From Patiria pectinifera (Eukaryota > Echinodermata > Asteroidea > Valvatida > Asterinidae), in contig CM057141.1 of assembly GCA_029964075.1 (NCBI GenBank), positions 9,176,001-9,240,000 on the forward strand: a stretch of DNA of 64,000 nucleotides. The letters are read 5' to 3'. This document shows positions 1 to 62,392 of the stretch, piece after piece. Each line of letters begins with the position of its first letter. Within the stretch, counting starts at the first letter, position 1. Under the pieces are notes generated by a model. It was not told the origin of the DNA. It saw only the letters and a list, made by a program, of their open reading frames with translations, and did no database searches. Made by a program: the position numbers and the translations under genes.

Positions 1-500
1 TTCCTTAGAAAATTCCTGAAAAATCAACCATGGCAGTTTTTATATTAGTTTTTACTTTAATTGTCGATTTAAGGGTAGGTCTAAAACATTTCAAAGCTTC
101 GAGGCAATTAGCAAACTCGAACATGCCCCGCGCACGCTTAAAACTTCAGGTTGACAATACCTCTGCTTTAAAATATGCACAGGACGTCCACAGTGTACAT
201 GTACCTGCACGTACATTGTACGTTGTACAAATCGTATGTCAGTCAGCCCGCGCGCAGCGCATGTGTTGCCAAGGTCAATTCCTGTCCACAGTGACCGTTT
301 TAGCCGATTTCCGGCTAACTTTGACAGATTTCATGTTCATGCATAGTGATAGTCAGGGACGTTGATAAAAACAAATCATAATGCGGAAAGCCCTATCTTC
401 TGTTGCAAAAAGACATAGATCTCTACTTATATGTCTATGGGTCCAACAGATAATCAATATTGGGAACAGCTCTGTGGTTGTTCACAACCACAATTTCTAG
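1..500 (+). repeat. Array unit, type A, 5'-truncated by window edge
   Basis: Only the 3' third of a type A unit is in the window. It contains the GTACAT-rich stretch, the TTAGCCG/CGGCTAA hairpin (about 300-320) and the terminal hairpin TGTGGTTG/CAACCACA followed by CTAG at 497-500. Confidence 0.75.
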
Positions 501-1849
501 TTTGTTTTTTTTTCTTTTTTTTTCTTTTTCCACTTTTCCCCATAGGTTTTGTACACGTTTTTATTCTACAAGCCACTTTGGCAATTATTTTAAATCCGAT
601 CAACTTTAAACTCAGCATAGTTATTAACCATCATCTGAGGATGTATGCCGAAACTTTTCGTCATGCTGACGTCATCACGTGATTTATTATAGATTTTTGA
701 ATATTTAATTTTTCCCATAGACTTTGTACACAGAAATTTCTAAAAAAATGTCGATTTTCAGAGGGCATTTTCAACTCTTTGCCAGTAATTCATTTACACC
801 AATCTTTGTCCAAGCAAAGACCCTAATTCAAACAACATTGTGTAATGATGACGTCATGATGACGTCATCCGGTGTTTATTTATAGGCAATTGAATAGTGA
901 CACTTTTAATATTAAAAAATGCATAACAAATCAACCATACGCGTCCGCAGCATTCTGTTGCCGGCAAGTGGTAGAGTAGGTTGAGGTCTTTATTTCATTC
1001 AGTGTGCGTGAAATCACGTGACCCTTGCTTCCGGTCGAAAAAGGCCAAAACCGGAAGTGGCTTCTTATTTGAAAGTGGTAATAGATATGAACTTGCTTTT
1101 AACGGTGTTAGTCTCTTGGCTGATAGTATTCTTCAAATCATCTACCGATGACGTCATGCAATCTTCGAGCGCCCTCTAGCGACAGGTTGAAAATTTTCAA
1201 AAATGTATTTTGAATAGATGTCTGTGGCGAAGTTTGTCGGAATTACCTAAATATTGGTGTATATGATGACCTTGACCCACTTGAGACGTGTGCGAAGTTT
1301 AAGGTGTATGACGTCATCAGACCGGAAGTTATAATGAAAAGACCCTTTTTCCTTAGAAAATTCCTGAAAAATCAACCATGGCAGTTTTTATATTAGTTTT
1401 TACTCTAATTGTCTATTTAAGGGTAGGTCTAAAACATTTCAAAGCTGCAAGGCAATAAGCAAACTCGGACATGCCCTGCGCACGCTTAAAACTTCAGGTT
1501 GACAATACCTCTGCTTTAAAACATGCACAAGACGACCACAATGAACATGTACATGTACATGCACGTACGTTGTACATATCGTATGTCAGTCAGCCCGCGC
1601 ACAGCGCACGTGTTGCTGGGGTCAAATCCTGTCCACAGTGACCGTTTTAGCCGATTTCCGGCTAACTTTGACAGATTTTATGTTCATGCATATAGTCAGG
1701 GACGTTTTATTGATAAAAACAAATCATACTGCGGAAAAGTCCTATCTTCTGTTGCAAACAGACATAGATCTCTACTTATATGTCTATGGGTCCAACAGAT
1801 AATCAATATTGGGAACAGCTCTGTGGTTGTTCACAACCACAATTTCTAG
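501..1849 (+). repeat. Array unit, type A (1,349 bp), canonical
   Basis: This is the best reference copy of type A. In order it has: a T-rich start; a CCATAGG...ACACG block shared with type B; a paired TGACGTCA motif (about 848-870); a CCGGAAGT pair near 1030-1060; a single TGACGTCA near 1148 and 1309; a TTAGCCG/CGGCTAA hairpin near 1650; nested arms CTGTTG...CAACAG with CATAGA/TCTATG inside; and the terminal hairpin plus CTAG. Confidence 0.75.
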
Positions 1850-3010
1850 TTTTCCTTTTTAGCTGTTTCGGTGTACACACCGAAACAGCTCTTGTTTTTG
1901 TTATTTTTAGTTTTTCTCTTTTTTTTTTTTCCACTTTTTTTCTCATAGGATAACACGTGTTTTCGTTCTACAAGTCACTTTTGGCATTTTTTCAAATCCG
2001 ATCGACTTCAAACCTGGCATACACTTAGACCACTATCTGAAGATGTGCACTGAATCATGACGTCATCATGACGTCATCACGTGTCACATGACATCATCCT
2101 TTAAGAGCATACTTTAAGGCCCTATATCTACACAACCGGAAGTCCGATTTGGTCCAAACCTGGTATGCAAGTATTCCGGGACGTGTTATAGACAAAAATT
2201 ACAGTGACGTCATGATGACGTCATCGTGTGATTTTATATAAATTATTTACTTTTTGGACCTTTTACTCATATCTCATTAACGGAATGTGGTAAATTCAAA
2301 ATTCTTTTTGTAACAGGTTTGTTAGGTCATAGATAGATGCACAAAATTTGTTAAAATGTGTGACGTCATCATGACGTCATCAAAAACGTGATTTTTTTAT
2401 TCACATATAAGGGTATGTCCGATCGTTATGAAACTTGGTGGGTAGGTAGGTATGGATAACAGCATTCAAAATCTGAAGTGACGTCATCATGACGTCATCA
2501 TCTGATTTTTTATGAATTTTTCAAATTTTAATATTTTCTTCAAATTTTGCAAAAATTATATAAAATACGGTCTGATCGACTTCAAACCTGGCACACACTT
2601 ATACAACCATCGGAAAATGTATGCCGAATCATGACATCATCATGACGTGATCACGTGTCACATTACGTAATCCTAAAAGTGCATACTTTAAGGCCCTATA
2701 TCTACAGAACCGGAGGTCGAATTGGGTTCAAACTTGGTATGCAAGTATTCTGGGACGTGTTGTAGATAGAAATTACAGTGACGTCACGATGACATCATCA
2801 TGTGATTTTATATAAATTTTACTCATATCTCATCAATGGAACGTGGTTAATTTTTTTTTTGCAAAAGGTTTGTTAGGTCGTAGATAGATACAGAAAATTT
2901 CAAAAAAATACGCATGTACATGTTTATTCGACCTGGATGAAACTCCTTTACAGCAGTCATTAATAAAACGGTCGAAACAGCTCAGTGTTTGTCCACAAAC
3001 ACATTTCTAG
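1850..3010 (+). repeat. Array unit, type B (1,161 bp)
   Basis: It opens with a 30-bp hairpin (1861-1890, stem AGCTGTTTCGGTGT). Its first ~130 bp match type A, but the interior is different: a chain of ~150-190-bp subunits, each with a CCGATT(T/G)GGTTCAAACTTGGTATG-like line and a TGACGTCA pair. It ends with the type B hairpin GTGTTTGT/ACAAACAC plus CTAG. Confidence 0.7.
1861..1890. repeat. 30-bp palindrome, type B stem
   Basis: Stem AGCTGTTTCGGTGT with ACACCGAAACAGCT and a 2-nt loop. It lies 11 nt after a unit end. The right arm resembles the sequence just before the type B terminal hairpin. Further copies are at 14251-14280 and 15954-15983. Confidence 0.85.
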
Positions 3011-4352
3011 TTTTTTTTTTTTTTCTTTTTCCACTTTTCCCATAGGTTTTGTACACGTTTTTATTCTACAAGCCACTTTGGCAATTATTTTAAATCCGAT
3101 CAACTTTAAACTCAGCATAGTTATTAAGCATCATCTGAAGATGTGTGCCGAATCTTTTCGTCATGCTGACGTCATCACGTGATTTATTATAGAATTTTGA
3201 ATATTTAATTTTTCCCATAGACTTTGTACACAGATTTTTTTTTAAAAATGTCGATTTTCAGAGGGCATTTTCAACTCTTTGCCAGTAATTTATTTACACC
3301 AATCTTTGTCCAAGCAAAGACCCTAATTCAAACAACATTGTGTAATGATGACGTCATGATGACGTCATCCGGTGTTTATTTATATGCAATTGAATAGTGA
3401 CACTTTTAATATTTAAAAATGCATAAGAAATCAACCGTACGCGTCCGCAGCATTCTGTTGCCGGCAAGTGGTAGAGTAGGTTCAGGTCTTTATTTCATTC
3501 AGTGTGCGTGAAATCACGTGACCCTTGCTTCCGGTCGAAAAAGGCCAAAACCGGAAGTGGCTTATTATTTGAAAGTGGTAATAGATATGAACTTGCTTTC
3601 AACGGTGTTAGTCTCTTGGCCAATAGTATTCTTTAAATCATCAACCGATGACGTCATGCAATCTTCGAGCGCCCTCTAGCGACAGGTTGAAAATTTATAA
3701 AAATGTATTTTGAATAGATGTCTGTGGCGAAGTTTGTCGGAATCGCCTAAATATTGGTGTATATGATGACCTTGACCCACCTAAGACGTGTGCGAAGTTT
3801 AAGGTGTATGACGTCATCAGACCGGAAGTTATAATGAAAAGACCCTTTTTCCTTAGAAAATTCCTGAAAAATCAACCATGGCAGTTTTTATATTAGTTTT
3901 TACTTTAATTGTCTATTGAAGGGTAGGTCTAAAACATTTGAAAGCTCTGAGGCAATAAGCAAACTCGGACATGCCCTGCGCACGCTTAAAACTTCAGGTT
4001 GACAATACCTCTGCTTTGAAACATGTACAGGACGTCCACAATGTACAGTACATGTACATGTACATGCACGTACGTTGTACATATCGTATGTCAGTCAGCC
4101 CGCGCACAGCGCACGTGTTGCTTAGGTCAAATCCTGTCCACAGTGACCGTTTTAGCCGATTTCCGGCTAACTTTGACAGATTTTATGTTCATGCATAGTC
4201 AGGGACGTATTATTGATAAAAACAAATCATAATGCGGAAAAGCCCTATCTTCTGTTGCAAACAGACATAGATCTCTACTGATATGTCTATGGGTCCAACA
4301 GATAATCAATATTGGGAACAGCTCTGTGGTTGTTCACAACCACAATTTCTAG
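3011..4352 (+). repeat. Array unit, type A (1,342 bp)
   Basis: Colinear with the canonical type A unit at 501-1849 with scattered substitutions. The GTACAT stretch is expanded near 4046-4082. Intact terminal hairpin and CTAG. Confidence 0.75.
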
Positions 4353-5831
4353 TTAGCTGTTCCCAATTTCAATTGGGAACAGCTCTTGTTTTCGTTAAAG
4401 TTTTTTTTTTTCCTTTTTTTTAGCTGTTCCCAATTTCAATTGGGAACAGCTCTTGTTTTCGTTAAAGTTTTTTTTTTTCCTTTTTTTTTTTTTTTTTTTT
4501 TTTTTTCTTTTTCCACTTTTCCCCATAGGTTTTGTACACGTTTTTATTCTACAAGCCACTTTGGCAATTATTTTAAATCCGATCAACTTTAAACTCAGCA
4601 TAGTTATTAACCATCATCTGAGGATGTATGCCGAAACTTTTCGTCATGCTGACGTCATCACGTGATTTATTATAGAATTTTGAATATTTAATTTTTCCCA
4701 TAGACTTTGTACACAGAAATTTAAAAAAAAATGTCAATTTTCAAAGGGCATTTTCGACTCTTTGCCAGTAATTCATTTACACCAATCCTTGTCCAAGCAA
4801 AGACCCTTACTTAAACAGCATTGTGTAATGATGACATCATGATGACGTCATCCGGTGTTTATTTATAGGCAATTAAATTGTGACACTTTTAATATTTAAA
4901 AATGCATAAGAAATCAACCGTACGCATCTGCAGCATTCGGTTGCCAGCAAGTGGTAGAGTAGGTTGAGGTCTTTATTTCATTCAGTGTGCGTGAAATCAC
5001 GTGACCCTTGCTTCCGGTCGAAAAAGGCCAAAACCGGAAGTGGCTTATTATTTAAAAGTGGTAATAGATATGAACTTGCTTTCAACGGTGTTAGTCTCTT
5101 GGCTGATAGTATTCTTCAAATCATCTACCGATGACGTCATGCAATCTTCGAGCGCCCTCTAGCGACAGGTTGAAAATTTTCAAAAATGTATTTTGAATAG
5201 ATGTCTGTGGCGAAGTTTGTCGGAATCACTTAAATATTGGTGTATATAATGACCTTGACCCACTTAAGCCGTGTGCGAAGTTTAACGTGTATGACGTCAT
5301 CAGACCGGAAGTTATAATGAAAAGACCCTTTTTCCTTAGAAAATTCCTGAAAAATCAACCATGGCAGTTTTTATATTAGTTTCTACTTTAATTGTCTATT
5401 TAAGGGTAGGTCTAAAACATTTCAAAGCTTCGAGGCAATAAGCAAACTCGGACATGCCCCGCGCACGCTTGAAACTTCAGGTTGACAATACCTCTGCTTT
5501 AAAAAATGCACAGGACGTCCACAATATACATTTACATGCACGTACATTGTACGTTGTACATATCGTATGTCAGTCAGCCCGCGCGCAGCGCACGTGTTGC
5601 TGAGGTCAAATCCTGTCCACAGTGACCGTTTCAGCCGATTTCCGGCTAACTTTGACAGATTTTATGTTCATGCATAGTGATAGTCAGGGGCGTTGTTAAA
5701 AACAAATCATTATGCGGAAAGCCCTATCTTCTGTTGCAAACAGACATAGATCTCTACTTATATGTCTATGGGTCCAACAGATAATCAATATTGGGAACAG
5801 CTCTGTGGTTGTTCACAACCACAATTTCTAG
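4353..5831 (+). repeat. Array unit, type A with duplicated leading hairpin (1,479 bp)
   Basis: Begins with two direct copies, 67 bp apart, of a 30-bp near-perfect palindrome (4355-4384 and 4422-4451; stem AGCTGTTCCCAATT, 2-nt loop) each followed by a pyrimidine run, then a normal type A unit. The extra module explains the greater length. Confidence 0.75.
4355..4384. repeat. 30-bp palindrome, type A stem
   Basis: Stem AGCTGTTCCCAATT with AATTGGGAACAGCT and loop TC, 2 nt after a unit end. Its right arm matches the TTGGGAACAGCTC that precedes the type A terminal hairpin. Other copies are at 4422-4451 and 8537-8566. Confidence 0.85.
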
Positions 5832-7179
5832 TTTTTTTCTTTTTTTTTCTTTTTCCACTTTTCCCATAGGTTTTGTACACGTTTTTATTCTACAAGCCAC
5901 TTTGGCAATTATTTTAAATCCGATCAACTTTAAACTTGGCATAGTCATTAACAATCATCTGAGGATGTATGCCGAAACTTTTCGTCATGCTGACGTCATC
6001 ACGTGATTTATTATAGAATTTTGAATATTTAATTTTTCCCATAGACTTTGTACACAGATTTTTATTTTTAAATCTCGATTTTCAGAGGGCATTTTCAACT
6101 CTTTGCCAGTAATTCATTTACACCAATCTTTGTCCAAGCAAAGACCCTAATTCAAACAACATTGTGTAATGATGACGTCATGATGACGTCATCCGGTGTT
6201 TATTTATAGTCAATTGAATAGTAACACTTTTAATATTAAAAAATGCATAAGAAATCAACCGTACGCGTCCGCAGCATTCTGTTGCCGGCAAGTGGTAGAG
6301 TAGGTTAGGGTCTTTATTTCATTCAGTGTGCGTGAAATCACGTGACCCTTGCTTCCGGTCGAAAAAGGCCAAAACCGGAAGTGGCTTATTATTTAAAAGT
6401 GGTAATAGATATGAACTTGCTTTTAACGGTGTTAGTGTCTTGGCTAATAGTATTCTTTAAATCATCTACCGATGACGTCATGCAATCTTCGAGCGCCCTC
6501 TAGCGACAGGTTGAAAATTTTCAAAAATGTATTTTGAATAGATGTCTGTGGCGAAGTTTGTCAGAATTGCCTAATAATCGGTATATATGATGACCTTGAC
6601 CCACTTAACACGTGTGCGAAGTTTAAGGGGTATGACGTCATCAGACCGGAAGTTATAATGAAAAGACCCTTTATCCTTAGAAAATTCCTGAAAAATCAAC
6701 CATGGCAGTTTTTATATTAGTTTTTACTTTAATTGTCTATTTAAGGTTAGGTCTAAAACATTTCAAAGCTTTGAGGCAATTAGCAAACTCGGACATGCCC
6801 CGCGCACGCTTAAAACTTCAGGTTGACAATATCTCTGCATTAAAACATGCACAAGACGTCCACAATGGACATGTACATACACGTACATTGTACGTTGTAC
6901 ATGTACATTATCGTATGTCAGTAAGCCCGCGCTTAGCGCCCGTGTCGCTGAGGTCAAATCCTGTCCACAGTGACCGTTTTAGCCGATTTCCGGCTAACTT
7001 TGACAGATTTTATGTTCATGCATAGTGATAGTCAGGGACGTTGATCAAAACAAATCATAATGCGGAAAGCCCTGTTTTCTGTTGCAAACAGACATAGATC
7101 TCTACTTATATGTCTATGGGTCCAACAGATAATCAATATTGGGAACAGCTCTGTGGTTGTTCACAACCACAATTTCTAG
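5832..7179 (+). repeat. Array unit, type A (1,348 bp)
   Basis: Full-length copy colinear with 501-1849; intact terminal hairpin and CTAG ending at 7179. Confidence 0.75.
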
Positions 7180-8527
7180 TTTTTTTTTTTTTTCTTTTCT
7201 TTTCTTTTTCCACTTTTCCGCATAGGTTTTGTACACGTTTTTATTCTACAAGCCACTTTGGCAATTATTTTAAATCCGATCAACTTTAAACTCAGCATAG
7301 TTATTAACCATCATCTGAGGATGTATGCCGAAACTTTTCGTCATGCTGACGTCATCACGTGATTTATTATAGAATTTTGAATATTTAATTTTTCCCATAG
7401 ACTTTGTACACAGAAATTTAAAAAAAATGTCAATTTTCAAAGGGCATTTTCGACTCTTTGCCAGTAATTCATTTACACCAATCCTTGTCCAAGCAAAGAC
7501 CCTTACTCAAACAGCATTGTGTAATGATGACGTCATGATGACGTCATCCGGTGTTTATTTATAGGCAATTAAATTGTTACACTTTTAATATTTAAAAATG
7601 CATAAGAAATCAACCGTACGCGTCCGCAGCATTCTGTTGCCAGCAAGTGGTAGAGTAGGTTGAGGTCTTTATTTCATTCAGTGTGCGTGAAATCACGTGA
7701 CCCTTGCTTCCGGTCGAAAAAGGCCAAAACCGGAAGTGGCTTATTATTTAAAAGTGGTAATAGATATGAACTTGCTTTCAACGGTGTTAGTCTCTTGGCT
7801 GATAGTATTCTTCAAATCATCTACCGATGACGTCATGCAATCTTCGAGCGCCCTCTAGCGACAGGTTGAAAATTTTCAAAAATGTATTTTGAATAGATGT
7901 CTGTGGCGAAGTTTGTCGGAATCGCTTTAATATTGGTGTATATAATGACCTTGACCCACTTAAGCCGTGTGCGAAGTTTAAGGTGTATGACGTCATCAGA
8001 CCGGAAGTTATAATGAAAAGACCCTTTTTCCTTAGAAAATTCCTGAAAAATCAACCATGGCAGTTTTTATATTAGTTTTTACTTTAATTGTCGATTTAAG
8101 GGTAGGTCTAAAACATTTCAAAGCTTCGAGGCAATAAGCAAACTCGGACATGCCCCGCGCACGCTTGAAACTTCAGGTTGACAATACCTCTGCTTTAAAA
8201 AATGCACAGGACGTCCACAATGTACATGTACATGCACGTACATTGTACGTTGTACATATCGTATGTCAGTCAGCCCGCGCGCAGCGCACGTGTTGCTGAG
8301 GTCAAATCCTGTCCACAGTGACCGTTTTAGCCGATTTCCGGCTAACTTTGACATATTTTATGTTCATGCATAGTGATAGTCAGGGACGTTGTTAAAAACA
8401 AATCATTATGCGGAAAGCCCTATCTTCTGTTGCAAACAGACCTAGATCTCTACCTATATGTCTATGGGTCCAACAGATAATCAATATTGGGAACAGCTCT
8501 GTGGTTGTTCACAACCACAATTTCTAT
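7180..8527 (+). repeat. Array unit, type A (1,348 bp), CTAG mutated
   Basis: Full-length type A copy. The terminal hairpin is intact but the following CTAG reads CTAT (8524-8527). Confidence 0.7.
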
Positions 8528-9779
8528 TTTTTTTTTAGCTGTTCCCAATTTCAATTGGGAACAGCTCTTGTTTTCGTTAAAGTTTTTTTTTTTCCTTTTT
8601 TTTTTTTTTGTTTTTCCGCCAGTTGGGGAAAAACCTTTGTTTTTTTTTAATTTTTTTTTTTTTTTTTTTTTTTTTCCTCTTGGGACTTCCAACCAAAATG
8701 CCATAGACTTTGTGCACGTTTTTTCTAGCAAACACTTTTGGCATAAAACAAAGTCATATGACATCAAAACTTAACATAGTCACAGAACATATAGCAAAGG
8801 TCGTTCGCGAAGATAGACGCAATGATGACGTCATCATGGGTCATGTGACGTCATCGCAATGTTGCATATTTCAAAGCCCTATATCTACAGAACGGTATGT
8901 CCGATTGGCTTGAAACTCAGCATGTGGTTAGACAGGGAAGTGTTATAGATAAAATTTGAGATGACGTCATCATGACGTCATCATGTGATTTTATATTTAA
9001 TTTTGAATTTTTGAAGACTTTTGCCATATCTCACTAACGCAATATGATAAATTCGAAATTCTTTTTGTATTAGGTTCGCTGGGCAATAGATATATGCACA
9101 CAATTTGGAAAAATGCGTGACGTCATGATGACGTCAGCAAAAATGCGATTTTTTGAAACACATATAAGGGAATGTCCGATCGTCATGAAACTTGGTGGGT
9201 GGGTAGATAATAACACTAGTACACAAAATCTTGAATGACGTCACGATGACGTCATCAGTCGATTTGTAAAGATTTTTTTAAATTTTGCTTATTTTATTCT
9301 GCTTACAAAATTTAACACTTATATTAATCCGATTGTTTTCAAACTTGGTACAGACTAAAACCACAATAAAATAATGAGCACTGCCAAGTAATGTTACGAT
9401 GACGTCATCATTGGACATGTGACATCATCTTTAACTTATATATTTTTAACTTATATTTTAAGCCCCTATATCTCACGAACAGTACGTCAGATTGGGTTAA
9501 AACTTGGTATTGGGGTAGGCCGGGATGTGTTACAAATAAATATTGAGGTGACGTCATCATGACGTCATCTTGTGATTATATATATATATTTTATATATAA
9601 GACTTGCCGTATCTCACAAATGCATTATGCCAAAATCAAATTTCCCTTCAAATGAGGTTTGTTAGACAAAACATAAATGCACACAGTTTTGCACCAAACC
9701 AAAAACATGACCCCAATTAAAAAAAAAACATAATGCGGAAAAGCCCTATGCTCTGTTGCAAACAGACATAGACCTCTAG
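8528..9779 (+). repeat. Array unit, divergent type C (1,252 bp)
   Basis: Starts with the type A palindrome (8537-8566) and long T runs, then an interior that differs from A and B in sequence but has the same plan: ~150-190-bp subunits each with a TGACGTCA pair (for example near 8962, 9117, 9237, 9549). It ends at GACCTCTAG without the terminal hairpin, which looks deleted. Confidence 0.6.
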
Positions 9780-11117
9780 TTTTTCCTTTTTTTTCTTTTT
9801 CCACTTTTCCCATAGGTTTTGTACACGTTTTTATTCTACAAGCCACTTTGGCAATTATTTTAAATCCGATCAACTTTAAACTTTGCATAGTCATTAACAA
9901 TCATCTGAGGATGTATGCCGAAACTTTTGGTCATGCTGACGTCATCACGTGATTTATTATAGAATTTTGAATATTTAATTTTTCCCATAGACTTTGTACA
10001 CAGATTTTTTTTTAAAAATGTCGATTTTCAGAGGGCATTTTCAACTCTTTGCCAGTAATTCATTTACACCAATCTTTGTCCAAGCAAAGACCCTAATTCA
10101 AACAACATTGTGTAATGATGACGTCATGATGACGTCATCCGGTGTTTATTTATAGGCAATTATATTGTGACACTTTTAATATTAAAAAATGCATAAGAAA
10201 TCAACCGTACGCGTCCGCAGCATTCTGTTGCCGGCAAGTGGTAGAGTAGGTTGAGGTCTTTATTTCATTCAGTGTGCGTGAAATCACGTGACCCTTGCTT
10301 CCGGTCGAAAAAGGTCAAAACCGGAAGTGGCTTATTATTTAAAAGTGGTAATAGATATGAACTTGCTTTCAACGGTGTTAGTCTCTTGGCTAATAGTATT
10401 CTTCAAATCATCTACCGATGACGTTATGCAATCTTCGAGCGCCCTCTAGCGACGGGTTGAAAATTTTCAAAAATGTATTTTGAATAGATGTCTGTGGCGA
10501 AGTTTGTCGGAATGGCCTAATGATTGGTGTATATAATGACCTTGACCCACTTAAGACGTGTGCGAAGTTTCAGGTGTATGACGTCATCAGACCGGAAGTT
10601 ATAATGAAAAGACCCTTTTTCCTTAGAAAATTCCTGAAAAATCAACCATGGCAGTTTTTATATTAGTTTTTACTTTAATTGTCGATTTAAGGGTAGGTCT
10701 AAAACATTTCAAAGCTTCGAGGCAATTAGCAAACTCGGACATGCCCTGCGCACGCTTAAAACTTCAGGTTGACAATACCTCTGCTTTAAAACATGCACAG
10801 ACGTCCACAGTGTACATGTACATGCACGTACATTGTACGTTGTACATATCGTATGTCAGTCAGCCCGCGCGCAGCGCACGTGTTGCTGAGGTCAAATCCT
10901 GTCCACAGTGACCGTTTCAGCCGATTTCCGGCTAACTTTGACAGATTTTATGTTCATGCATAGTGATAGTCAGAGACTTTGTTAAAAACAAATCATTATG
11001 CGGAAAGCCCTATCTTCTGTTGCAAACAGACATAGATCTCTACTTATATGTCTATGGGTCCAACAGATAATCAATATTGGGAACAGCTCTGTGGTTGTTC
11101 ACAACCACAATTTCTAG
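9780..11117 (+). repeat. Array unit, type A (1,338 bp)
   Basis: Full-length type A copy with intact terminal hairpin and CTAG at 11114-11117. Confidence 0.75.
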
Positions 11118-13176
11118 TTTTTTTATTTTTTTTTTATTTTTCCACTTTTCCCATAGGTTTTGTACATGTTTTTATTCTACAAGCCACTTTGGCAATTATT
11201 TGAAATCCGGTCAACTTTAAACTCAGCCTAGTTATTAACCATCATCTGAGGATGTATGCCGAAACTTTTCGTCATGCTGACGTCATCACATGATTTATTA
11301 TAGAATTTTGAATATTTAATTTTTCCCATAGACTTTGTACACAGAAATTAAAAAAAAAATGTCGATTTTCAGAGGGCATTTTCAACTCTTTGCCAGTAAT
11401 TCATTTACACCAATCTTTGTCCAAGCAAAGACCCTGATTCAAACAACATTGTGTAATGATGACGTCATGATGACGTCATCCGGTGTTTATTTATAGGCAA
11501 TTAAATTGTGACACTTTTAACATTTAAAAATGTATAAGAAATCAACCGTACGCGTCCGCAGCATTCTGTTGCCGGCAAGTGGTAGAGTAGGTTCAGGTCT
11601 TTATTTCATTCAGTGTGCGTGAAATCACGTGACCCTTGCTTCCGGTCGAAAAAGGCCAAAACCGGAAGTGGCTTATTATTTGAAAGTTGTAATAGATATG
11701 AACTTGCTTTTAACGGTGTTAGTCTTTTGGCTGATAATATTCTTCAAATCATTTACCGATGACGTCATGCAAGCTTCGAGCACCCTCTAGCGACAGGTTG
11801 AACATTTTCAAAAATGTATTTTGGATAGATGTCTGTGGCGAAGTTTGTCGGAATCGCTTAAATATTGGTGAACATGATGACCTTGAACCACTTAAGACGT
11901 GTGCGAAGTTTAAGGTGTATGACGTCATCAGACCGGAAGTTATAATGAAAAGACTCTTTTTCCTTAGAAAATTCCTGAAAAATCAACCATGAAAGTTTTT
12001 ATATTAGTTTTTACTTTAATTGTCTATTGAAGGGTAGGTCTAAAACATTTCAAAGCTCCGAGGCAATAAGCAAACTCGGACATGCCCTGCGCACGCTTTA
12101 AACTTTAGGTTGACAATACCTCTGCTTTGAAACATGCACCGGACGTCCACAATGTACAGTACATGTACATGTACATGCACGTACGTTGTACATATCGTAT
12201 GTCAGTCAGCCCGCGCACAGCGCACGTATTGCTTAGGTCAAATCCTGTCCACAGTGACCGTTTTAGCCGATTTCCGGCTAACTTTGACAGATTTTATGTT
12301 CATGCATAGTCAGGGACGTATTATTGATAAAAACAAATCATAATGCGGAAAAGCCCTATCTTCTGTTATAGATATATAGATATGAACTTGCTTTTAACGG
12401 TGTTAGTCTCTTGGCTGATAGTATTCTTCAAATCATCTACCGATGACGTCATGCAATCTTCGAGCGCCCTCTAGCGACAGGTTAAAAAAATTCAAAAATG
12501 TATTTTGAATAGATGTCTGTGGCGAAGTTTGTCGGAATCGCCTAAATATCGGTGTATAGAATGACCTCGACCCACTTAAGACGTGTGCGAAGTTTAAGGT
12601 GCATGACGTCATCAGACCGGAAGTTATAATGAAAAGACTCTTTTTCCTTAAAAAACTCCTGAAAAATCAACCATGGCAGTTTTTGTATTAGTTTTTACTT
12701 TAATTGTCTATTTAAGGGTAGGTCTAAAACATTTCAAAGCTTCGAGGCAATAAGCAAACTTGGACATGCCCTGCGCACGCTTAAAACTTCAGGTTGACAA
12801 TAACTCTGCTTTAAAACATGCAGGACGTCCACTGTGACAATGTACATGTACATGTACACTGTACATGTACATGTACACTGTAGCCTACATGCACGTACGT
12901 TATACATATCGTAGTCAGTCAGCCCGCGCGCAGCCCACGTGTTGCTAAGGTCAAATCCTGTCCACAGTGACCGTTTTAGCCGATTTCCGGCTAACTTTGA
13001 CAGATTTTATGTTCATGCATAGTCAGGGACGTGTTATTGATAATAACAAATCATAATGCGGAAAAGCCATATCTTCTGTTGCAAACAGACATAGATCTCT
13101 ACTTATATGTCTATGGGTCCAACAGAAAATCAATATTGGAAACAGCTCTGTGGTTGTTCACAACCACAATTTCTCT
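11118..13176 (+). repeat. Array unit, rearranged double type A (2,059 bp)
   Basis: A type A copy runs to about 12367, stops inside the pre-terminal CTTCTGTT segment and jumps back to the internal ATAGATATGAACTTGC line, so the 3' half of a second type A copy follows. The end at 13176 has the hairpin but CTCT instead of CTAG. Confidence 0.65.
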
Positions 13177-14245
13177 TTTTTTTTCTTCCACTGTTTTTTC
13201 TCATAGGATAACACGTGTTTTCGTTCTACAAGGCACTTTTGGACTTTTTTCAAATCCGATCAACTTTAAACCTGGCACACACTTAGACCACCATCTGAAG
13301 ATGTATGCCGAATCATGACGTCATCATGACGTCATCACGTGTCACATGACGTCATCCTAAAAGAGCATAATTTAAGGCCCTATATCTGCAGAACCGAAAG
13401 TTCGATTTGGTTCAAACTTGGTATGCAAGTATGCAAGTATTCCGGGACGTGTAATAGACGAAAATTGCAGTGACGTCATGATGACGTCATCGCGTGATTT
13501 TATATAAATTATTCAATTTTTGGACCTTTTACTCATATTTCATAAACGGAATGTGGTAAATTCAAAATTCTTTTTGTAAAAGGTTTGTTAGGTCATACAT
13601 AGATGCATTACGTAAAATGTGTGACGTCATCATGACGTCATCAAAAACGTGATTTTTTTATTCGCATATATGTCCGATCGTTATGAAACTTGGTGGGTAG
13701 GTAGGTATAGATAAAAGCATTCAAAATCTGAAGTGACGTCATCATGACGTCATCGTCTGATTTTTTATGACTTTTTCAACTTTTAATATTTTCTTCAAAT
13801 TTTGCAAAAATTATACAAAATAAGGTCCGATCGACCTCAGAGAACCTGACGTCCGATTGGGTTCAATGTCGGTATGCAGATATTCCAGGAAGTGTTATAG
13901 ACAAAAACTGCAGTGACGTCACGATGACGTCATCATGTGATTTTATATGAATTATTCAATTTTTGGACCTTTCACTCATATTTCATCAATGGAACGTGGT
14001 AAATTCGAAATTCTTTTTTGCAAAAGGTTTGATAGGTCGTAGATAGATACAGAAAATTTCAAAAATGTGTGCCGTCATCATGACGTCATGAAAAAATGGG
14101 GTTTTTTTTGTACATAGGATGTACTTTTTGTATAGAATACACATGTACATGTACATGTTCATTCGACCTGGATGAAACTACTTTACAGCAGTCATTAATA
14201 AAACAGTCGAAACAGCTCAGTGTTTGTCCACAAACACATTTCTAG
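13177..14245 (+). repeat. Array unit, type B (1,069 bp)
   Basis: Type B start and interior with TGACGTCA pairs near 13318, 13471, 13623, 13736 and 13918, ending with the type B hairpin and CTAG at 14242-14245. Confidence 0.7.
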
Positions 14246-15951
14246 TTTTTAGCTGTTTCGGTGTACACACCGAAACAGCTCTTGTTTTTGTTATTTTTTT
14301 TTTTCTCTTTTTTTTTTTTTTCTTCCACTTTTTTTCCCATAGGATAACACGTGTTTTCGTTCTACAAGGCACTTTTGGACTTTTTTCAAATCCTATCGAC
14401 TTCAAACCTGGCACACACTTAGACCACCATCTGAAGATGTATGCCGAAACTTTTCGTCATCATGACGTCATCACGTGTCACGTGACGTCATTCTAAAAGA
14501 ACATACTTCAAGGCCCTATATCTACAGAACCGGAAGTCCGATTTGGTTCAAACTTGGTATGCAAGTATTCCGGGACGTGTTATAGACGAAAATTGCAGTG
14601 ACGTCATGATGACGTCATCGTATGATTTTATATGAATTATTCAATTTTTGGACCTTTTACTCATATCTCATAAACAGAATGTGGTAAATTCGAAATTCTT
14701 TTTGTAACAGGTTTGTTAGGTCATAGATAGATGTACAGAATTTCGTTAAATGTGTGACGTCATCATGACGTCATCAAAAACGTGATTTTTTGATTCACAT
14801 AGAAGGGTATGTCCGATCGTCATGAAACTTGGTGGGTAGGTAGGTATGGATAACAGAATTAAAAATCTGAAGTTACGTCATCGTGACGTCATCATCTTAT
14901 TGTTTATGAATTTTTCAAATTTTAATATTTTCTTCAAATTTTGCATAATTATATAAAATACGGTCCGATCGACTTCAAACCTGGCACACACTTATACAAC
15001 CATCTGAAGATGTATGCCGAATCATGACGTCATCATGACGTCATCACGTGTCACATGACGTCATCCTAAAAGTGTATACTTTAAGGCCCTATATCTACAG
15101 AACCGGAGGTCCGATTTGGTTCAAACTTGGTATGGAAGTTTCCGGGACTTGTTATAGACAAAAATTGCAGTGACGTCACAATGACGTTATCATGTGATTT
15201 TATATAAATTATGCAATTTTTGGTTCTTTTACTCAAATCTCATCAATGGAACATGGTAAATTCAAAATTCTTTTTGTAACATGTTTGTCAGGTGAAAGAT
15301 AGATGCACAACATTTCATAAAATGTGTGACGTCATCATGACATCATCAAAAACGTGATGTTGTGATTCACATATAAGGGTATGTCTGATCGTTATGAAAC
15401 TTAGTGGGTAGGTAGGTATAGATAAAAGCATTCAAAATCTGAAGTTACGTCATCATGACGTCATCGTCTAATTTTGTATGAATTTTTCAAATTTTAATAT
15501 TTTCTTCACATTTTTCAAAAATGATATAAAATATGGTCCGATCGACTTCAGAGAACCTGATGTCCGATTGGGTTCAATGTCGGTATGCAGATATTCCAGG
15601 AAGTTTTATAGACAAAAATTGCAGTGACGTCACGATAACGTCATCATGTCATTTGATATGAATTATTCAATTTTTGGATCTTTTACTCATATCTCATCAA
15701 TGGAACGTGGTTAATTCGACATTCTTTTTTGCAAAAGGTTTGTTCGGTCGTAGATAGATACAGACAATTTCAAAAAATGTGTGGCGTCATCATGACGTCA
15801 TGAGAAATGGTGTTTTTTTTACATAGCATGGAGACTTTTTGTATAGAATACGCATGTACATGTTCATTCAACCTGGATGAAACTCCTTTTACGGCAGTCA
15901 TTAATAAAACGGTCGAAACAGCTCAGTGTTTGTCCACAAACACATTTCTAG
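14246..15951 (+). repeat. Array unit, type B, long (1,706 bp)
   Basis: Opens with the type B palindrome (14251-14280). The interior repeats the subunit series about 1.5 times relative to the 13177-14245 copy, so it probably arose by internal duplication. Intact terminal hairpin and CTAG. Confidence 0.7.
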
Positions 15952-17530
15952 TTAGCTGTTTCGGTGTACACACCGAAACAGCTCTTGTTTCTGTTATTTT
16001 TTTTTTTCTCTTTTTTTTTTTTTTCCACTTTTTTCCCCATAGGATAACACGTGTTTTCGTTCTACAAGTCACTTTTTGCCTTGTTTCAAATCTGATCGAC
16101 TTCAAACCTGGCACACAGTTAAACTATCATCTGAAGATGTATGCCGAAACTTTTCGTCATGCTGACGTCATCACTTGATTTATTATAGAATTTTGAATAT
16201 TTAATTTTTCCCATAGACTTTGTACACAGAAATTTAAAAAAAAATGTCAATTTTCAGAGGGCATTTTCGACACTTTGCCAGTAATTCATTTACACCAATC
16301 TTTGTCCAAGCAATGACCCTAATTCAAACAACATTGTGTAATGATGATGTCATGATGACGTCATCCGGTGTTTATTTATAGGCAATTAAATTGTGACATT
16401 TTTAATATTTAAAAATGCATAAGAAATCAACCGTACGCGTCCGCAGCATTCTGTTGCCGGCAAGTGGTAGAGTAGGTTGAGGTCTTTATTTCATTCAGTG
16501 TGCGTGAAATCACGTGACCCTTGCTTCCGGTCGAAAAAGGCCAAAACCGGAAGTGGCTTATTATTTAAAAGTGGTAATAGATATGAACTTGCTTTTAACG
16601 GTGTTAGTCTTTTGGCTAATAGTATTCTTTAAATCATCTACCGATGACGTCATGCAATCTTCGAGCGCCCTCTAGCGACAGGTTGAAAATTTTCAAAAAT
16701 GTATTTTGAATAGATGTCTGTGGCGAAGTTTGTCGGAATCGCCTAATTATTGGTGTATATGATGACCTTGACCCACTTAAGACGTGTGCGAAGTTTAAGG
16801 CTTATGACGTCATCAGACCGGAAGTTATAATAAAAAGACCCTTTTTCCTAAGAAAATTCCTGAAAAATCAACCATGGCAGTTTTTATATTAGTTTTTACT
16901 TTAATTGTTTATTTAAGGGTAGGTCTAAAATATTTCAAAGCTTCGAGGCAATAAGCAAACTCGGACATGCTCTGCGCACGCTTAAAACTTCAGGTTGACA
17001 ATAACTCTGCTTTAAAACATGCACAGGAAGTTTATGTACTTTTACATGTACATGTACATGCACGTACATTGTACATATCGTATGTCAGTCAGCCCGCGTG
17101 CAGCGCACGTGTTGCTGAGGTCAAATCCTGTCCACAGTGACCGTTTTAGCCGATTTCCGGCTAACTTTGACAGATTTTATGTTCATGCATAGTCAAAAAT
17201 TGCAGTGACGTGACGATGATGTCATCATGTGTTTTATATGAATTATTCAATTTTTGGACCTTTTACTCATATTTCATCAATGGAACGTGGTAAATTCGAA
17301 ATTCTTTTTTGCAAAAGGTTTGTTAGGTCGTAGATAGATACAGAAAATTTCAAAAATGTGTGCCGTCATCATGACGTCATGAAAAAAATGTTTTTTTTTT
17401 ACATAGCATAGACACTTTTTGTATAGAATACGCATGTACATGTTCATTCGTCCTGGATGAAACTCCTTTACGGCAGTCATTAATAAAACGGTCGAAACAG
17501 CTCAGTGTTTGTCCACAAACACATTTCTAG
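15952..17530 (+). repeat. Array unit, B/A/B mosaic (1,579 bp)
   Basis: Starts with the type B palindrome (15954-15983) and type B 5' block, switches to type A near 16140 (the ATGTATGCCGAAAC line), follows type A to about 17193, then switches back to type B (CAAAAATTGCAGTGACG) and finishes with the type B hairpin plus CTAG. Confidence 0.65.
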
Positions 17531-19111
17531 TTTTTCTTTTTTTTTCTTTTTCCACTTTTCCCCATAGGTTTTGTACACGTATTTATTCTACAAGCCACTT
17601 TGGCAATTATTTTAAATCCGATCAACTTTAAACTCAGCATAGTCATTAACCATCATCTGAGGATGTGTGCCGAAACTTTTCGTCATGCTGACGTCATCAC
17701 GTGATTTATTATAGAATTTTGAATATTTAATTTTTCCCATAGACTTTGTACACAGAAATTTCTAAAAAAATGTCGATTTTCAGAGGGCATTTTCAACTCT
17801 TTGCCAGTAATTCATTTACACCAATCTTTGTCCAAGCAAAGACCCTAATTCAAACAACATTGTGTTATGATGACGTCGTGATGACGTCATCCGGTGTTTA
17901 TTTATAGGCAATTAAATTGTGACACTTTTAATATTCAAAAATGTATAAGAAATCAACCGTACGCGTCCGCAGCATTCTGTTGCCGGCAAGTGGTAGAGTA
18001 GGTTGAGGTCTTTATTTCATTCAGTGTGCGTGAAATCACGTGACCCTTGCTTCCGGTCGAAAAAGACCAAAACCGGAAGTGGCTTTTTATTTGAAAGTGG
18101 TAATAGATATGAACTTGCTTTTAACGGTGTTAGTGTCTTGGCTGATAGTGTTCTTCAAATCATCTACCGATGACGTCATGCAATCTTCGAGCGTCCTCTA
18201 GCGACAGGTTGAAAATTATCAACAATGTATTTTGAATAGATGTCTGTGGCGAAGTTTGTCAGAATGGCTTAATTATTGGTGTATATGATGACCTTGACCC
18301 ACTTAAGATGTGTGCGAAGTTTAAGGTGTATGACGTCATCACACCGGAAGTCATGAATATTTAATGAGATACTCTTTACAGTCTTATAACTATGGAACTA
18401 TTTGACCGATTGATCTCAAATTCAGTAGGTATACAGACAGGGATGTGTTATAAATGAAAATTGATATGTCAAGGTCATGTGACCTTCACTTCCGGTTTTA
18501 CCGGAAGTGGTAATTTTAGACCCCTAAATCATATTTCATGAATTATTAATCTGATTTGGTTGAAACTTCACATTAATACAAAGCTATATTGACAGATAAT
18601 TTTATTGCATTATTATTACTGTGCACTTAATTATTGTCATGTCATGACGTCATGAATATTTAATGAGACAATTTGTACAGTCCTATAACTATAGAACTAT
18701 TTGACCGATTGATCTCAATCCTGGCAGGTATACAGACAGGGAAGTGTTATAGATAAAAATTTACATGTCAAGGTCATGTGACCTTCACTTCCGGTTTTAC
18801 CGGAAGTGGTAATGTTAGACCCTTATATCATATTTCATGAATTATTAATCTGATCAGGTTGAAATTTCACATTAATACAAAGCTATATTGACAGATAATT
18901 ATATTGAATTATTATTACTGTGCACATAATTATTGTTATGCTATGACGTCATGAATATATAAAAGGTTGTACCGGAAGTGGAATCTTTAAAAGTAATAAT
19001 TTCAATTTATTACTTTCATTTCTTGTTAATCATTAAATCATTTTGTTTATGGTCCAATAGAGAATCAAAACTGGGAACAGCTCTGTGGTTGTTCACAACC
19101 ACAACCTCTAG
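17531..19111 (+). repeat. Array unit, type A joined to ~300-bp repeat D (1,581 bp)
   Basis: Type A sequence runs to about 18345, after which two copies of a ~300-bp repeat replace the usual 3' part. The unit still ends with the type A hairpin TGTGGTTG/CAACCACA and CTAG at 19108-19111, the last copy of this end in the array. Confidence 0.65.
18346..18955 (+). repeat. Two tandem copies of a ~300-bp repeat (D)
   Basis: Copies start at the CATGAATATTTAATGAGA line near 18352 and 18651. Each contains an inverted AGGTCA pair (AGGTCA-TG-TGACCT) and a perfect 9-bp inverted repeat ACTTCCGGT-TTT-ACCGGAAGT, followed by an AT-rich stretch ending in TGACGTCA or a close variant. Confidence 0.75.
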
Positions 19112-33734: not shown

Positions 33735-34130
33735 TTGGTCAAGGTACATATTAACTGTCAAAACATTCAGACCTGTAGTTATGTAGATATAGGCCTTAAA
33801 TGCACCTTTATGTCATATGTCATATGAGGACGTCATCATGACATCACTTCAATTTTCATCTATAACACACCCCTGTCTAGGTATATGTACATACCAACTT
33901 TCAACCCAATCAAACTTGTAGTTCTGTAGATATAAGCCTTCAAAATGTGCACCTTGAATGTAATGTTACTTGTGCTGATGTCATGAAGATGTCAATGTTC
34001 AGCAAACATCTGCAGGTGCTGGTCTATGTGTGTGCCAAATAGAAAAGCAATCGGATGCACGATGAAAACATGTAAAAATGCTATGGGAAAAGTCTGGAAA
34101 AAAATAGATCTATGTCTGTTCCATAAACAT
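33735..34130 (-). repeat. Array-related repeat in reverse orientation
   Basis: Read on the - strand from 34110, it has the same plan as type B array units: TTTCCCATAGCA, a CATCCGATTGCTTTTC-like line, GGCACACACATAGACC, ATCTGCAGATGTT, then ATATCTACAGAAC, GATTGGGTTGAAAGTTGG, and a TGTCATGATGACGTC pair. Divergent from the array copies, with no terminal hairpin seen. Confidence 0.65.
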
Positions 34131-36556: not shown

Positions 36557-37560
36557 GTGTTTAACCAGGGTGATGTTGTAATGATGGAACAAGCTGTCAA
36601 GGGTCCCAGTACCTTCCCAGATGTTGACCTCAGTTGTGCAGCTTTATCCCCAACCGAGAAGGCAGCCATGGAGATACTCCTTACCCAAAACAGGGATGTG
36701 TTCTCAACAAGCTCCTTGAACGTCGGTTCCACCAGCACCGCAGAGCATGAAATCCCACTGAGTGATCCAACCCCCTTCAGACTACCCATATCTAGCTAAT
36801 CCCCCCCCCTCGCAGTTCCAAGAAGTTAGAAGCCATATATATAAGAGCTGAGACAGGCAGGTGTGATACATCCCAACCAGAGTCCTAATACATGTATACA
36901 TCCCCAAATTGTAGTCGTGCAGAAGAAGGATGGAAAGATAAGTTTGTGCATTGACTACCTCCAGCTGAACTCGAAGACCATACAGTATGCCTACCCCCCA
37001 CCACGTATAGTCAAAGCACTCGATGCCCTGGGAAAGGCAACATATTTATCTTGCCTTGATCTAACGTCCAGCTACCACCAGGTCAAGATGGCTACAAAAG
37101 ACCAGCAGAAGACAGCTTTCACCTCACTGATGGGGCTATTTGAGTTAAGCCGAAGCCCTTCGGACTCGTGAACGCGCCAGCTACATTTCAGAGGTTGATG
37201 TCAACTGTTTTTGGTGACATGGCGTTTGAGAGTCTGCTCATCTACCTGATTGACATCATTGCCTTCAGCACCATGATGGAGGAGCACGTGGAGCATCTCA
37301 GCAAAGTGTTTGCCAGATTACAAGAGCATGGGCTAAAGTTGAAAGCGTCAAAATGTCAACTCTTCAGAACCAGTGTGCACTATCTGCGTCACAAAGTGTC
37401 AGCGGAGGGAATCACCAAAGATCCTGGGAAGGTTTCGGCAGTGAAGAATTGGCGTATCCCGAAATGCAAGAAGGATGTCAGGAGTTTTCTGGGGATCACC
37501 GGTTATTACCGAAGGTTTGTTCACCAGTATGCAAAGATTGCAGCTCCCCTTTTGCACTGA
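36557..37560 (+). pseudogene. Degenerate Gypsy element 2: reverse transcriptase
   Basis: Pieces in order: a linker with AAMEILLTQNRDVFSTSS; a break near 36800; VVVQKKDGKISLCIDYLQLN; YLSCLDLTSSYHQVKMATKD; a frameshift near 37160; NAPATFQRLMSTVFGDMAF; then LIYLIDIIAFS where YLDDIIVF is expected, so the first catalytic Asp is lost. KKDVRSFLGITGYYRRFV closes the thumb. At least three frame breaks. Insert into the same intron as the young Gypsy but from a different, older lineage. Confidence 0.85.
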
Positions 37561-37920
37561 TCGGAGGCAAGCTGAACACCAGAGATCCACCCTTTGCATG
37601 GACTGAAGGATGTCAAGAAGCATTCACCAACCCGATCACCGGATTAACCTCTGCACCAATACTGGCATATGCCTACTACACTCTTCCATTCTCGGTTCAG
37701 ACTGATGACTCCCTTGACGGTTTTGGTGCAGTGCTAACTCAGGAGCAGGTGGCAAAGAAAGGGTAACTGCCTGCACGAGCCGGACCCTAACTCCATCTGA
37801 AGCAAGAAATCCTGCCTACAAGTTGAAATTTAAAGCGCTTCATTGGGCTGTTACCAACAAATTTAGAGATTGCCTGTATGGCAACCAGGTGACAGCAGTG
37901 ACTGACAATAATCCCTTGAC
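37561..37920 (+). pseudogene. Degenerate Gypsy element 2: RNase H
   Basis: FSVQTDDSLDGFGAVLTQEQ (about 37690-37745) is the RNase H start (DAS usually, here DDS). It continues in another frame with KALHWAVTNKFRDCLYGNQV and TDNNPLTY near 37835-37920. Confidence 0.8.
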
Positions 37921-37934
37921 CTACCGGTACATGA

Positions 37935-38332
37935 TTCCATGGGCCACGCCAAAGACAGATACTTCTGGCCAGAAATGTATTCTGAAGTGAAGAGGTACAT
38001 CACAAAATGCAGACGATGCGCACTCAGCAAGACACCAGACAAGAAGACGAGCAGGTCTGCAGAGCATCAGGACAAGTAGGCCATTGGAATTAGTGTGAAT
38101 CAATTTTTTAGGTTTGGAGACTTCCAAGGGAGAGTACGAACACATACTGGTCATCACAGACCACCACACCCGATATTCTCAAGCCTATCCTACTAGAAAG
38201 GCAAGGACTGTGGCACGAGTTCTATGGGAGAAATTCATCTCCAACTATGGAATCCCAGAACGACTCCACTCCGACCGGGAGGGGTCAGAAAATGTGAACC
38301 CCATCATTTTCTCACAGTCTGGTCCCTATTGA
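37935..38332 (+). pseudogene. Degenerate Gypsy element 2: integrase, truncated
   Basis: DRYFWPEMYSEVKRYITKCR then RCALSK gives the zinc-binding domain end, then VITDHHTRYSQAYPTRKART and FISNYGIPERLHSDREGS, the catalytic core up to the second Asp. The first Asp region is shifted. Homology stops at about 38330, where the DIRS-like element starts, so the 3' third of the Gypsy element is missing. Confidence 0.8.
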
Positions 38333-39256
38333 AGCCAAAACAGCAAAAATAATCAATTTTAGCATAAAAATCCTACGGGAGTGCATGCGATACCGCACTA
38401 TTGCCCCCAAACCTGTGACTGTTTCCTTTATCGCTGCTGGCGTAAGTTTCAGACTGTTGTGCCAAGAAGTCTTGGTTGCAATGACCCTGTACACATTGCG
38501 AAGCAACAGTTTTGCAGGTAAGATCACCTGTGCCATAGACACACACTGTCTGGCTATGCGTGCAAGGGCCCTTGCTTGTATGGTTGGTTTCCGTAGCGCC
38601 CTCTGAATGTCGCGCCGGAGTTTTCGCGTTTTCTCTTGAGGAATGCATATTGTTGGCACAGTGCCCGGGCAGGTTGAGATATTTTACCTGATCCACAATT
38701 TTGTTTGTTCAGGTACCAATGAGGATTTGTCATAATTAATTGTCCACCCGAGATCCTCAAGAGTGGCAATTAGGAAGTCTGATTGAGCAGCAATATTACT
38801 TGGGGATGCCGCAAGTAACCAGTCATCAACAAACAGGGCTGCACGTAAACCACAGACCCTAACATATTCAAGAACCGGTCGCAAAACTTTTGCAAAGAAG
38901 TAAGGTGAGGCATTTAACCCAAATGGAAGTCTGGTCCAGCAATAATAATTATGATTCCATTTAAAACCTAGGAAGGTTTGATGAGATTCACAAACAGGCA
39001 CATGATAAAACCCATCCTTGAGATCAATCGTAATTAACTGGTCCTCACTCTTCACTAATGAATAAACAACGTCAATTTTTTCGTTAGAAAACTTGGGAGC
39101 ATCAATGTAAGAATTCACAACACGTAAATCAATAATAAGTCTCCACTTATTTTTGCCCTTCTTCGGTACCACATTCAGTGGAGAGACAACTCTAGATTTA
39201 AAGGCACATCTGGCAATAATACCTTTCTGAAGCAAGTTCTTAATCTCACTATTCAA
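38312..39256 (-). pseudogene. DIRS-like retroelement reverse transcriptase/RNase H
   Basis: The - strand frame from 39256 has VVSPLNVVPKKGKNKWRLII, DLRVVNSYI, LITIDLKDGFYHVPV, LPFGLNASPYFFAKVLRPVL and the active site LFVDDWLLAASP. LPFGLN.SP and VDDWL(L) are characteristic of DIRS/Ngaro tyrosine-recombinase retroelements rather than Gypsy or LINEs (family knowledge). Near 38680 the frame shifts, and the RNase H part continues to 38312 (ICIPQEKTRKLRRDIQRALR; QVILPAKLLLRNVY). The RT catalytic residues are intact but the frameshift and upstream stops break the ORF. It lies 108 nt after the gag-like frame and in the same phase. Confidence 0.8.
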
Positions 39257-39364
39257 AAATGTTATTTGATCACTTGAAAAATTTCTGTTAGGTAATTAAA
39301 TCACCGGTGGGTCAGTGGTAAACGGTAGTAGTTAGGAATAGTTAGAGAGTGGCATGATTCAGAA

Positions 39365-40198: not shown

Positions 40199-40267
40199 TT
40201 TGTGTCAATTTGACGATTTTTTACGCCGGATCATGCGGCGTGAATGCGCGATAGAACACAAGACCCC

Positions 40268-40389: not shown

Positions 40390-40895
40390 TTGGACTGTCC
40401 TCACACACCACCTCTGAGGCATGTATGTTTCTCAAACCGATTGGACCGTCCTCACACACCACCTCCGAGACATGTATGTTTCACAAACCGATTGGACCGT
40501 CCTCACACACCACCTCCGAGGCATGTGTGTTTCACAAACCGATTGGACCGTCCTCACACACCACCTCCGATGCATGTATGTTTCACAAACCGATTGGACC
40601 GTCCTCACACACCACCTCCGAGACATGTGTGTTTCACAAACCGATTGGACCGTCCTCACACACCACCTCCGAGGCATGTATGTTTCACAAACCGATTGGA
40701 CCGTCCTCACACACCACCTCCGAGGCATGTGTGTTTCACAAACCGATTAGACCGGCCTCACACACCACCTCCGAGGCATGTATGTTTCACAAACCGATTG
40801 GACCATCTTCACACACCACCTCTGAGGCATGTGTTTCACAAACTGATTGGACCGTCCACACACACCACCTCTGAGGCATGTATGTTTCTCAAACC
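40390..40895 (+). repeat. 51-bp minisatellite, 10 copies
   Basis: CACACACCACCT recurs at 51-bp steps from 40402 to about 40859. Because 51 is divisible by three, three + frames and one - frame stay open, producing artefactual repeat proteins (for example HKPIGPSSHTTSEACVF). TGTATG and TGTGTG alternate between successive copies, giving a 102-bp higher-order unit. Confidence 0.9.
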
Positions 40896-44024: not shown

Positions 44025-44038
44025 CTCACCCCCTAATT
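44025..44038 (-). promoter_or_regulatory. Polypurine tract
   Basis: On the - strand AATTAGGGGGTGAG abuts the TGTAACC start of the 3' LTR; it is the expected primer for plus-strand DNA synthesis and fixes the inner LTR boundary. Confidence 0.85.
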
Positions 44039-51496: not shown

Positions 51497-51514
51497 ATCC
51501 TGCCGACTACGCCA
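51497..51514 (-). promoter_or_regulatory. Primer-binding site matching tRNA-Ser
   Basis: On the - strand, TGGCGTAGTCGGCAGGAT lies 2 nt inside the 5' LTR end. Its complement is the 3' end of a typical eukaryotic tRNA-Ser (acceptor CGACTACG plus CCA). It would prime minus-strand synthesis. Confidence 0.88.
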
Positions 51515-51516
51515 AG

Positions 51517-62390: not shown

Positions 62391-62392
62391 AA

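Follow-up and report, generated by a model that had tools for sequence, protein, structure and literature searches.

How a mobile element turns into satellite DNA is an open question, and a locus of the sea star Patiria pectinifera (NCBI GenBank assembly GCA_029964075.1, contig CM057141.1, forward-strand positions 9,176,001 to 9,240,000) raises it directly. Positions 1 to 19,111 of this 64,000-nucleotide stretch, hereafter the window, hold on the plus strand a head-to-tail row of about 15 small elements, which looks like a cluster of transposons turning into a satellite. What kind of element is repeated here, and how did the row arise? We found that the elements look like non-autonomous Helentrons (HINEs) and that most of the complete ones keep the 3' end of such an element and have no 5' head, and we tentatively favour an origin by self-insertion followed by recombination and later insertions.

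Units and ends of the array

Fourteen unit ends could be placed, at 500, 1849, 3010, 4352, 5831, 7179, 8526, 9779, 11117, 13174, 14245, 15951, 17530, and 19111. Twelve of them read CTAG, the one at 8526 reads CTAT, and the one at 13174 reads CTCT. Position 19111 is the right end of the array, which runs past the left edge of the window and is at least 19 kb long. A perfect hairpin (stem of at least 6 bp, finishing 7-9 nt upstream of the CTAG end) precedes 11 of the 26 plus-strand CTAG sites in 1-19111, whereas 200 first-order Markov sequences contained on average 0.105 such sites and never more than 1. In the rest of the window the same combination occurs at 0 of 104 CTAG sites on the plus strand and 1 of 104 on the minus strand, and at each of the three minus-strand cases among 26 within the array, the hairpin of a 5' head adjoins the palindromic CTAG. 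At 9779, the twelfth CTAG end, the hairpin is interrupted, and the CTAT and CTCT tails keep a full one. In all, a hairpin folds in 14 of 14 tails, with an energy that is reached by 1-9 of 300 shuffles, and its distance from the end, as the units were cut, is 8 nt in the 12 CTAG tails, 7 nt in the CTAT tail, and 6 nt in the CTCT tail. Thus the array of repeated hairpin-CTAG units is confirmed, and so are the features that the original prediction had read from it, namely 12 CTAG ends with CTAT and CTCT variants, a hairpin before CTAG, and a head-to-tail row of at least 19 kb starting outside the window.

The row is composed of two sister families (A and B), one odd unit, and one chimera, intermixed. 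The A family, with mutual identity of 91.0-98.6%, consists of units 1, 2, 4, 5, 6, 7, and 9 and both parts of unit 10. Unit 1 (1-500; CTAG at 497-500) is cut by the window edge and is 91-97% identical to the other A units. Units 2 (501-1849, beginning within a T-run), 4 (3011-4352), 6 (5832-7179), 7 (7180-8526, with the CTAT end and 98.6% identity to the body of unit 5), and 9 (9780-11117, a mosaic) are headless, i.e., they have no 5' terminal palindrome. Unit 5 (4353-5831) has two stacked heads, formed by a 67-bp direct duplication at 4353-4488. The headless unit 10 (11118-13174) is a fusion of two A units via a deletion near 12366 and finishes with CTCT. The B units, 3 (1850-3010; head at 1859), 11 (13175-14245; headless), and 12 (14246-15951; head at 14249), differ from A in their bodies, where ATGACGTCAT-rich modules are repeated, and have a 5' part that is A-like as judged by eye; unit 3 is flanked by the T-rich remnant TTTTCCTTT on the left and by T14CT5CCAC on the right. 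Unit 8 (8527-9779) is the odd one, with an A-type head at 8535, a diverged body (68-76% identity to the B units), and a short tail whose interrupted hairpin is not accompanied by a matching subterminal repeat. Unit 13 (15952-17530) is the chimera, with a B head, an A middle, and a B tail. The rightmost unit, 14 (17531-19111), is headless and combines an A-like 5' half with a 3' half of its own, in which there is a 299-bp direct repeat (18350-18962). Five of the 13 complete units (2, 4, 6, 7, and 9) are 1338-1349 bp long, so that the unit length of about 1.34 kb given in the original prediction is correct, and its share of half of the units slightly generous. The 5' heads, the division into families and into headed and headless units, the double head, the fused unit 10, and the unit 13 chimera go beyond that prediction.

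This regular period in five units and the position of the array at the window edge might be taken to indicate a plain satellite or an assembly artefact. However, the units differ from each other at the percent level, have discrete, family-matched ends, and follow a junction rule that is common to several element types, and we regard this explanation as highly improbable.

Anatomy and class of the elements

Six heads were found, each of which consists of TT and a palindrome with a 13-bp stem: A heads at 4353 (4353-4388), 4420, and 8535, and B heads at 1859, 14249, and 15952, all on the plus strand. For each of the six, the fold energy was reached by none of 300 shuffles. The heads begin with TTAGCTG, the units are flanked by T-runs, and directly behind the head there is a T-tract (T11CCT26CT5 in unit 5, for example), followed by the body. 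A complete copy reads 5'-TT, palindromic subterminal repeat, T-tract of about 30-45 nt, ATGACGTCAT-rich body modules, a second subterminal repeat, hairpin, and 8 nt ending in CTAG-3'. The two ends are matched by family. The A head arm has a 13-bp match in seven of the 14 tails, 28-29 nt from the end, as in the A tail at 458-500 (match, 3' hairpin, and 8-nt spacer ending in CTAG), and an 11-bp match in the tail at 19111. The B head arm has a 10-bp match in four of the 14, 28 nt from the end. A arms against B tails, and B arms against A tails, pair over 7 bp only. Thus 11 of the 14 tails carry the full match of their family.

Seven A units contain a second, weaker hairpin 94-96 bp before the end (at 1734, 4237, 5716, 7064, 8412, 11002, and 13061), followed by CTCTAC; at the corresponding place in unit 8 there is CTCTAG, which is its end. 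This hairpin may represent a former 3' end, bypassed once a new tail had been gained. The short tail of unit 8 could be such a former end, which the A family bypassed later, or could result from a deletion between two TCTA repeats (seen by eye). The last 60 columns of six aligned A units include a single variable column; since equally low variation is found in 101 of 1258 windows, we did not use this conservation as evidence.

Canonical Helitrons begin with 5' TC and insert between A and T (PMC4067079). The canonical 3' trait, a hairpin followed by CTRR, is found in the array (CTAG in 12 of 14 tails, hairpin in all). However, no unit begins with TC and the flanks are T-runs in place of A|T sites, and therefore canonical insertion between A and T is not seen and we rejected the canonical Helitron as the class of these elements. 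Of the Helitron-like ends in the original prediction, a rolling-circle-type 3' end remains, and the canonical class does not.

HINEs, as described in PMC4067079, have palindromic subterminal repeats by the 5' end, which recur upstream of the 3' palindrome, and T-rich insertion sites with variable numbers of Ts. We call the array elements Helentron-like, with HINE anatomy, because their 5' palindromic subterminal repeat is family-matched to the repeat inside the 3' hairpin and because they are located in T-runs. Palindromic subterminal repeats 2-4 nt from the 5' end, as in the HINE/DINE-1 elements of Thomas et al. (2014; PMC4067079), are present in all six heads, and this 5' copy is absent from the eight headless units. 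A palindrome near the 3' end, as in HINEs (8-35 nt from the end; about 8 nt in the closest description), is present in every tail, 6-8 nt from the end as cut. The likeness extends to the T-rich target, the variable flanking Ts, and the internal tandem modules. The junctions within the array are consistent with T-rich insertion without target duplication, although T-runs would hide a duplication of T. In contrast to the mite HINEs, in which the 3' subterminal repeat lies 38-60 nt from the end, it lies 27-29 nt from the end here; the CTAG end is ascribed in that source to a proto-Helentron; and the long internal 5' T-tract and an array of at least 19 kb are further differences.

The longest stop-to-stop frame listed within the array has 124 aa (frames crossing the window edge are not listed). 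The window contains 92 frames of at least 90 aa, and a Pfam scan of 10 of these, all outside the array, gave matches to reverse transcriptase, integrase, zinc-finger, and ALKBH8_N models and none to a Rep or helicase domain. HINEs such as these would be moved in trans by a Rep-helicase of the Helentron/Helitron2 type, which is a predicted partner. Pattern scans with short motifs of the ends and body gave no matches in viral and prokaryote contig collections, a result that is uninformative on animals.

Origin of the array

Only five of the 13 complete units have heads (3, 5 with two, 8, 12, and 13), and the other eight retain the 3' end and start in the T-run right after the end of their neighbour. 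Of the 13 junctions, correspondingly, two (after 4352 and 15951) join a 3' end exactly to a 5' end, three contain 3-9 extra T-rich bases, and eight are without a 5' head. The exact joins are what is expected of a rolling-circle multimer, the origin proposed in the original prediction, that is made by missed termination, to which tandem Helitrons in bat and silkworm are attributed (PMC4067079). A simple concatemer of this kind predicts full 3'-to-5' joins throughout, and we reject it because eight junctions are headless. Furthermore, both families alternate with the odd and the chimeric unit, the A units differ from each other by up to 9%, and one multimer insertion is therefore insufficient. 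The proposal is too simple and, for the array as a whole, very unlikely, although units 12 and 13, which are headed, of B type, and adjacent, could still have arisen in this way.

If units 3, 5 (with both heads), 8, 13, or 12 and 13 together are cut out of the sequence, what is left is CTAG, a T-run, and CCAC (CTAT in place of CTAG for unit 8). The result resembles the headless junctions that were left as they are, and no bases other than Ts are visibly duplicated. The exercise adds two points: the T-remnants on the left fit the same T-tract, and the one next to unit 3, itself a B unit, carries the CC of the A T-tract and not the CTC of B (a two-base marker). Based on this fit and on their complete, family-matched ends, we read the headed units as insertions into an existing headless array.

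The A units are mosaics. Seven aligned A units, out of 11 A or A-like pieces, have 51 informative and 105 singleton sites, and 447 of the 1275 pairs of informative sites are incompatible, i.e., do not fit one tree. Incompatibility rises with distance, from 16% (54/340) within 200 bp to 28 of 28 pairs beyond 1200 bp. Unit 9, for example, has unit 6 as its closest relative over the 5' third, and units 5 and 7 over the 3' third.

Taken together, the best model, which we hold tentatively and would not yet call probable, is a seed self-insertion, recombination that multiplied a headless repeat, and later insertions of intact HINEs. In the order that we infer, one HINE would first have entered the 5' T-tract of a second one, with both in the same orientation, which would produce the order body-CTAG-T-run-body. 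Homologous exchange between these long direct repeats would then have amplified the headless monomer and shuffled its copies, and intact A and B HINEs would have entered the T-runs behind existing CTAG ends to give the headed units; both steps are partly supported by the data above. Finally, deletion and exchange, whose products are seen in the sequence, gave rise to the fusion in unit 10 and to the chimera of unit 13.

Several observations weigh against this model. The tail at 9779 pairs over at most 3 bp with any head, and that at 13174, an A tail with one change, pairs over 9 bp with B and only 7 bp with A. Cutting out unit 12 alone leaves the head of unit 13, and the cut-out is partly true by construction since each removed unit precedes a headless one. 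Local unequal exchange might be expected to make neighbours alike, and no such dependence of identity on spacing within the array is seen (11 pieces, r = -0.11, P = 0.26; seven units, r = 0.05, P = 0.58). The mosaics, moreover, could predate the array and have formed among source copies. A simple duplication of neighbours was dropped for lack of a trend with distance; the pairs of units 5 and 7 (98.6%) and 6 and 9 (96.1%) are only hints of a two-unit duplication.

Alternatively, the headless copies may themselves be mobile: the transposase would nick the internal T-tract, which would stand in for the 5' end, a headless circle would be replicated by the rolling-circle mode into a concatemer, and complete HINEs would be inserted later. 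All eight headless units start in a T-run and finish at the usual 3' end or at its CTAT or CTCT variant, as expected, and the Helentron endonuclease has been proposed to cut indiscriminately between Ts (Thomas et al. 2014; PMC4067079). However, the shared variant sites besides the private ones, and their mosaic distribution, are not the simple star of one concatemer, and the window contains no solo headless copy that is flanked on its left by unrelated sequence. We consider this alternative possible, if unlikely.

In another scenario, pure serial self-nesting, full-length copies would have been inserted one after another into older T-tracts, and the absent heads would have been displaced to the left of the window. 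The heads stacked at 4353-4488 fit this scenario, as does the headless state of the rightmost unit, which is a trivial requirement of it, and self-insertion with multiple 5' termini has been reported for Fusarium Helitrons (PMC5148889). Nesting was simulated with two random rules of site choice, four sizes, and 14 or 15 bodies (16 settings of 3000 runs each). The last 14 or 15 bodies carried 9.8-11.7 heads on average, compared with six observed, and six or fewer heads occurred in at most 1.2% of the runs in every setting. Nesting conserves heads overall, and the simulation disfavours pure self-nesting; it assumes random site choice, and the scenario would be saved if headed T-tracts were strongly preferred. 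As it stands, this origin is distinctly unlikely.

Under the preferred model of seeding, recombination, and later insertion, the T-tract deserves attention. A complete copy lands in T-runs and has a T-tract of its own, and the element therefore carries its preferred target behind its 5' end. If HINEs do so, arrays could be founded by a single self-insertion and enlarged through ordinary recombination. One may further speculate that the T-tract is a built-in landing pad and also a substitute 5' end, such that headless units move or multiply from the T-run behind the CTAG of a neighbour. We regard this extension as unlikely. If true, it would turn a HINE into a satellite in which 3' ends are complete and 5' ends absent, and any HINE with a T-tract would be able to seed a self-targeting array.

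Several known systems share parts of this picture. Cg_HINE of Crassostrea gigas (PMC7492417) is similar by description in its HINE ends, satellite-like modules, and T-rich sites, and no target duplication is reported for it; its arrays are made of repeats inside one element, whereas here whole, mostly headless elements are repeated. FoHeli of Fusarium, of the Helitron2 type (PMC5148889), inserts into itself, and its 5' termini are duplicated over 73 or 85 nt, comparable to the 67-bp double head of unit 5. Unlike the array, with its 14 3' ends and six heads, FoHeli combines several 5' ends with one 3' end. A three-copy tandem in Metarhizium is explained in the same source by repeated insertion at the 5' end or by rolling-circle replication. 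Plant centromeres contain long tandems of truncated rolling-circle elements (Xiong et al. 2016, via PMC12628747), in many of which a single 3' end goes with multiple 5' ends, and shuffled Helitron/satellite loci are reported from oyster (PMC12628747). A published model for the path from Helitron to satellite, as described in PMC12628747, invokes rolling-circle multimers in which one 3' end accompanies many 5' ends, and also has the polarity opposite to that seen here, where 3' ends are many and 5' ends few. Full-text literature searches, which largely exclude subscription journals and reach the sources in part, found no array with many 3' ends and few 5' ends.

Other features of the window

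On the minus strand, an old, diverged relative of the element body lies at 33820-34130. It matches the body at 33820-34037 (about 220 bp, 70-74% identity), and, as judged by eye, a T-run and what resembles the remnant of a tail come before it. Short, diverged fragments of related modules (33, 40, and 87 bp) are found on the same strand at 62821-63165, near 62.8-63.2 kb. The reverse-strand relatives of the original prediction thus exist, short and diverged, and do not serve as proof of mobility. A 32-bp tandem repeat of 6.5 copies (62387-62591) adjoins a diverged element fragment.

The remaining features are mostly retroelements. A young Gypsy-type long terminal repeat (LTR) retrotransposon occupies 42390-53141 on the minus strand, with long gag-like and pol frames and 1.63-kb LTRs that are 99.0% identical; the LTR ends are TGTAACC...GGTTACA, and AATT is found at both outer flanks. 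Among the best 120 of 2490 matches to a Gypsy polyprotein of the window (7982 candidates scored), named ones are from fish, sea anemone, gorgonian, and mussel, with identities of 42-50%, and unnamed ones reach 61%. A second retroelement at 38684-40204 (minus strand) matches RVT_1 (67 bits), next to a frame without a Pfam match, and is adjoined by a tandem array of ten 51-bp repeats (40390-40895). Another RVT_1 match, slightly below the family cut-off, lies at 36845-37171 on the plus strand, and the frames from 36845 to 37990, the neighbours judged by eye, apparently belong to a Gypsy-like element broken into several frames. Finally, a plus-strand reading frame at 63379-63906 matches ALKBH8_N (42 bits), a Pfam model that is frequently found on reverse transcriptases of retrotransposons, and we take this frame to be probably the remnant of a long interspersed nuclear element.

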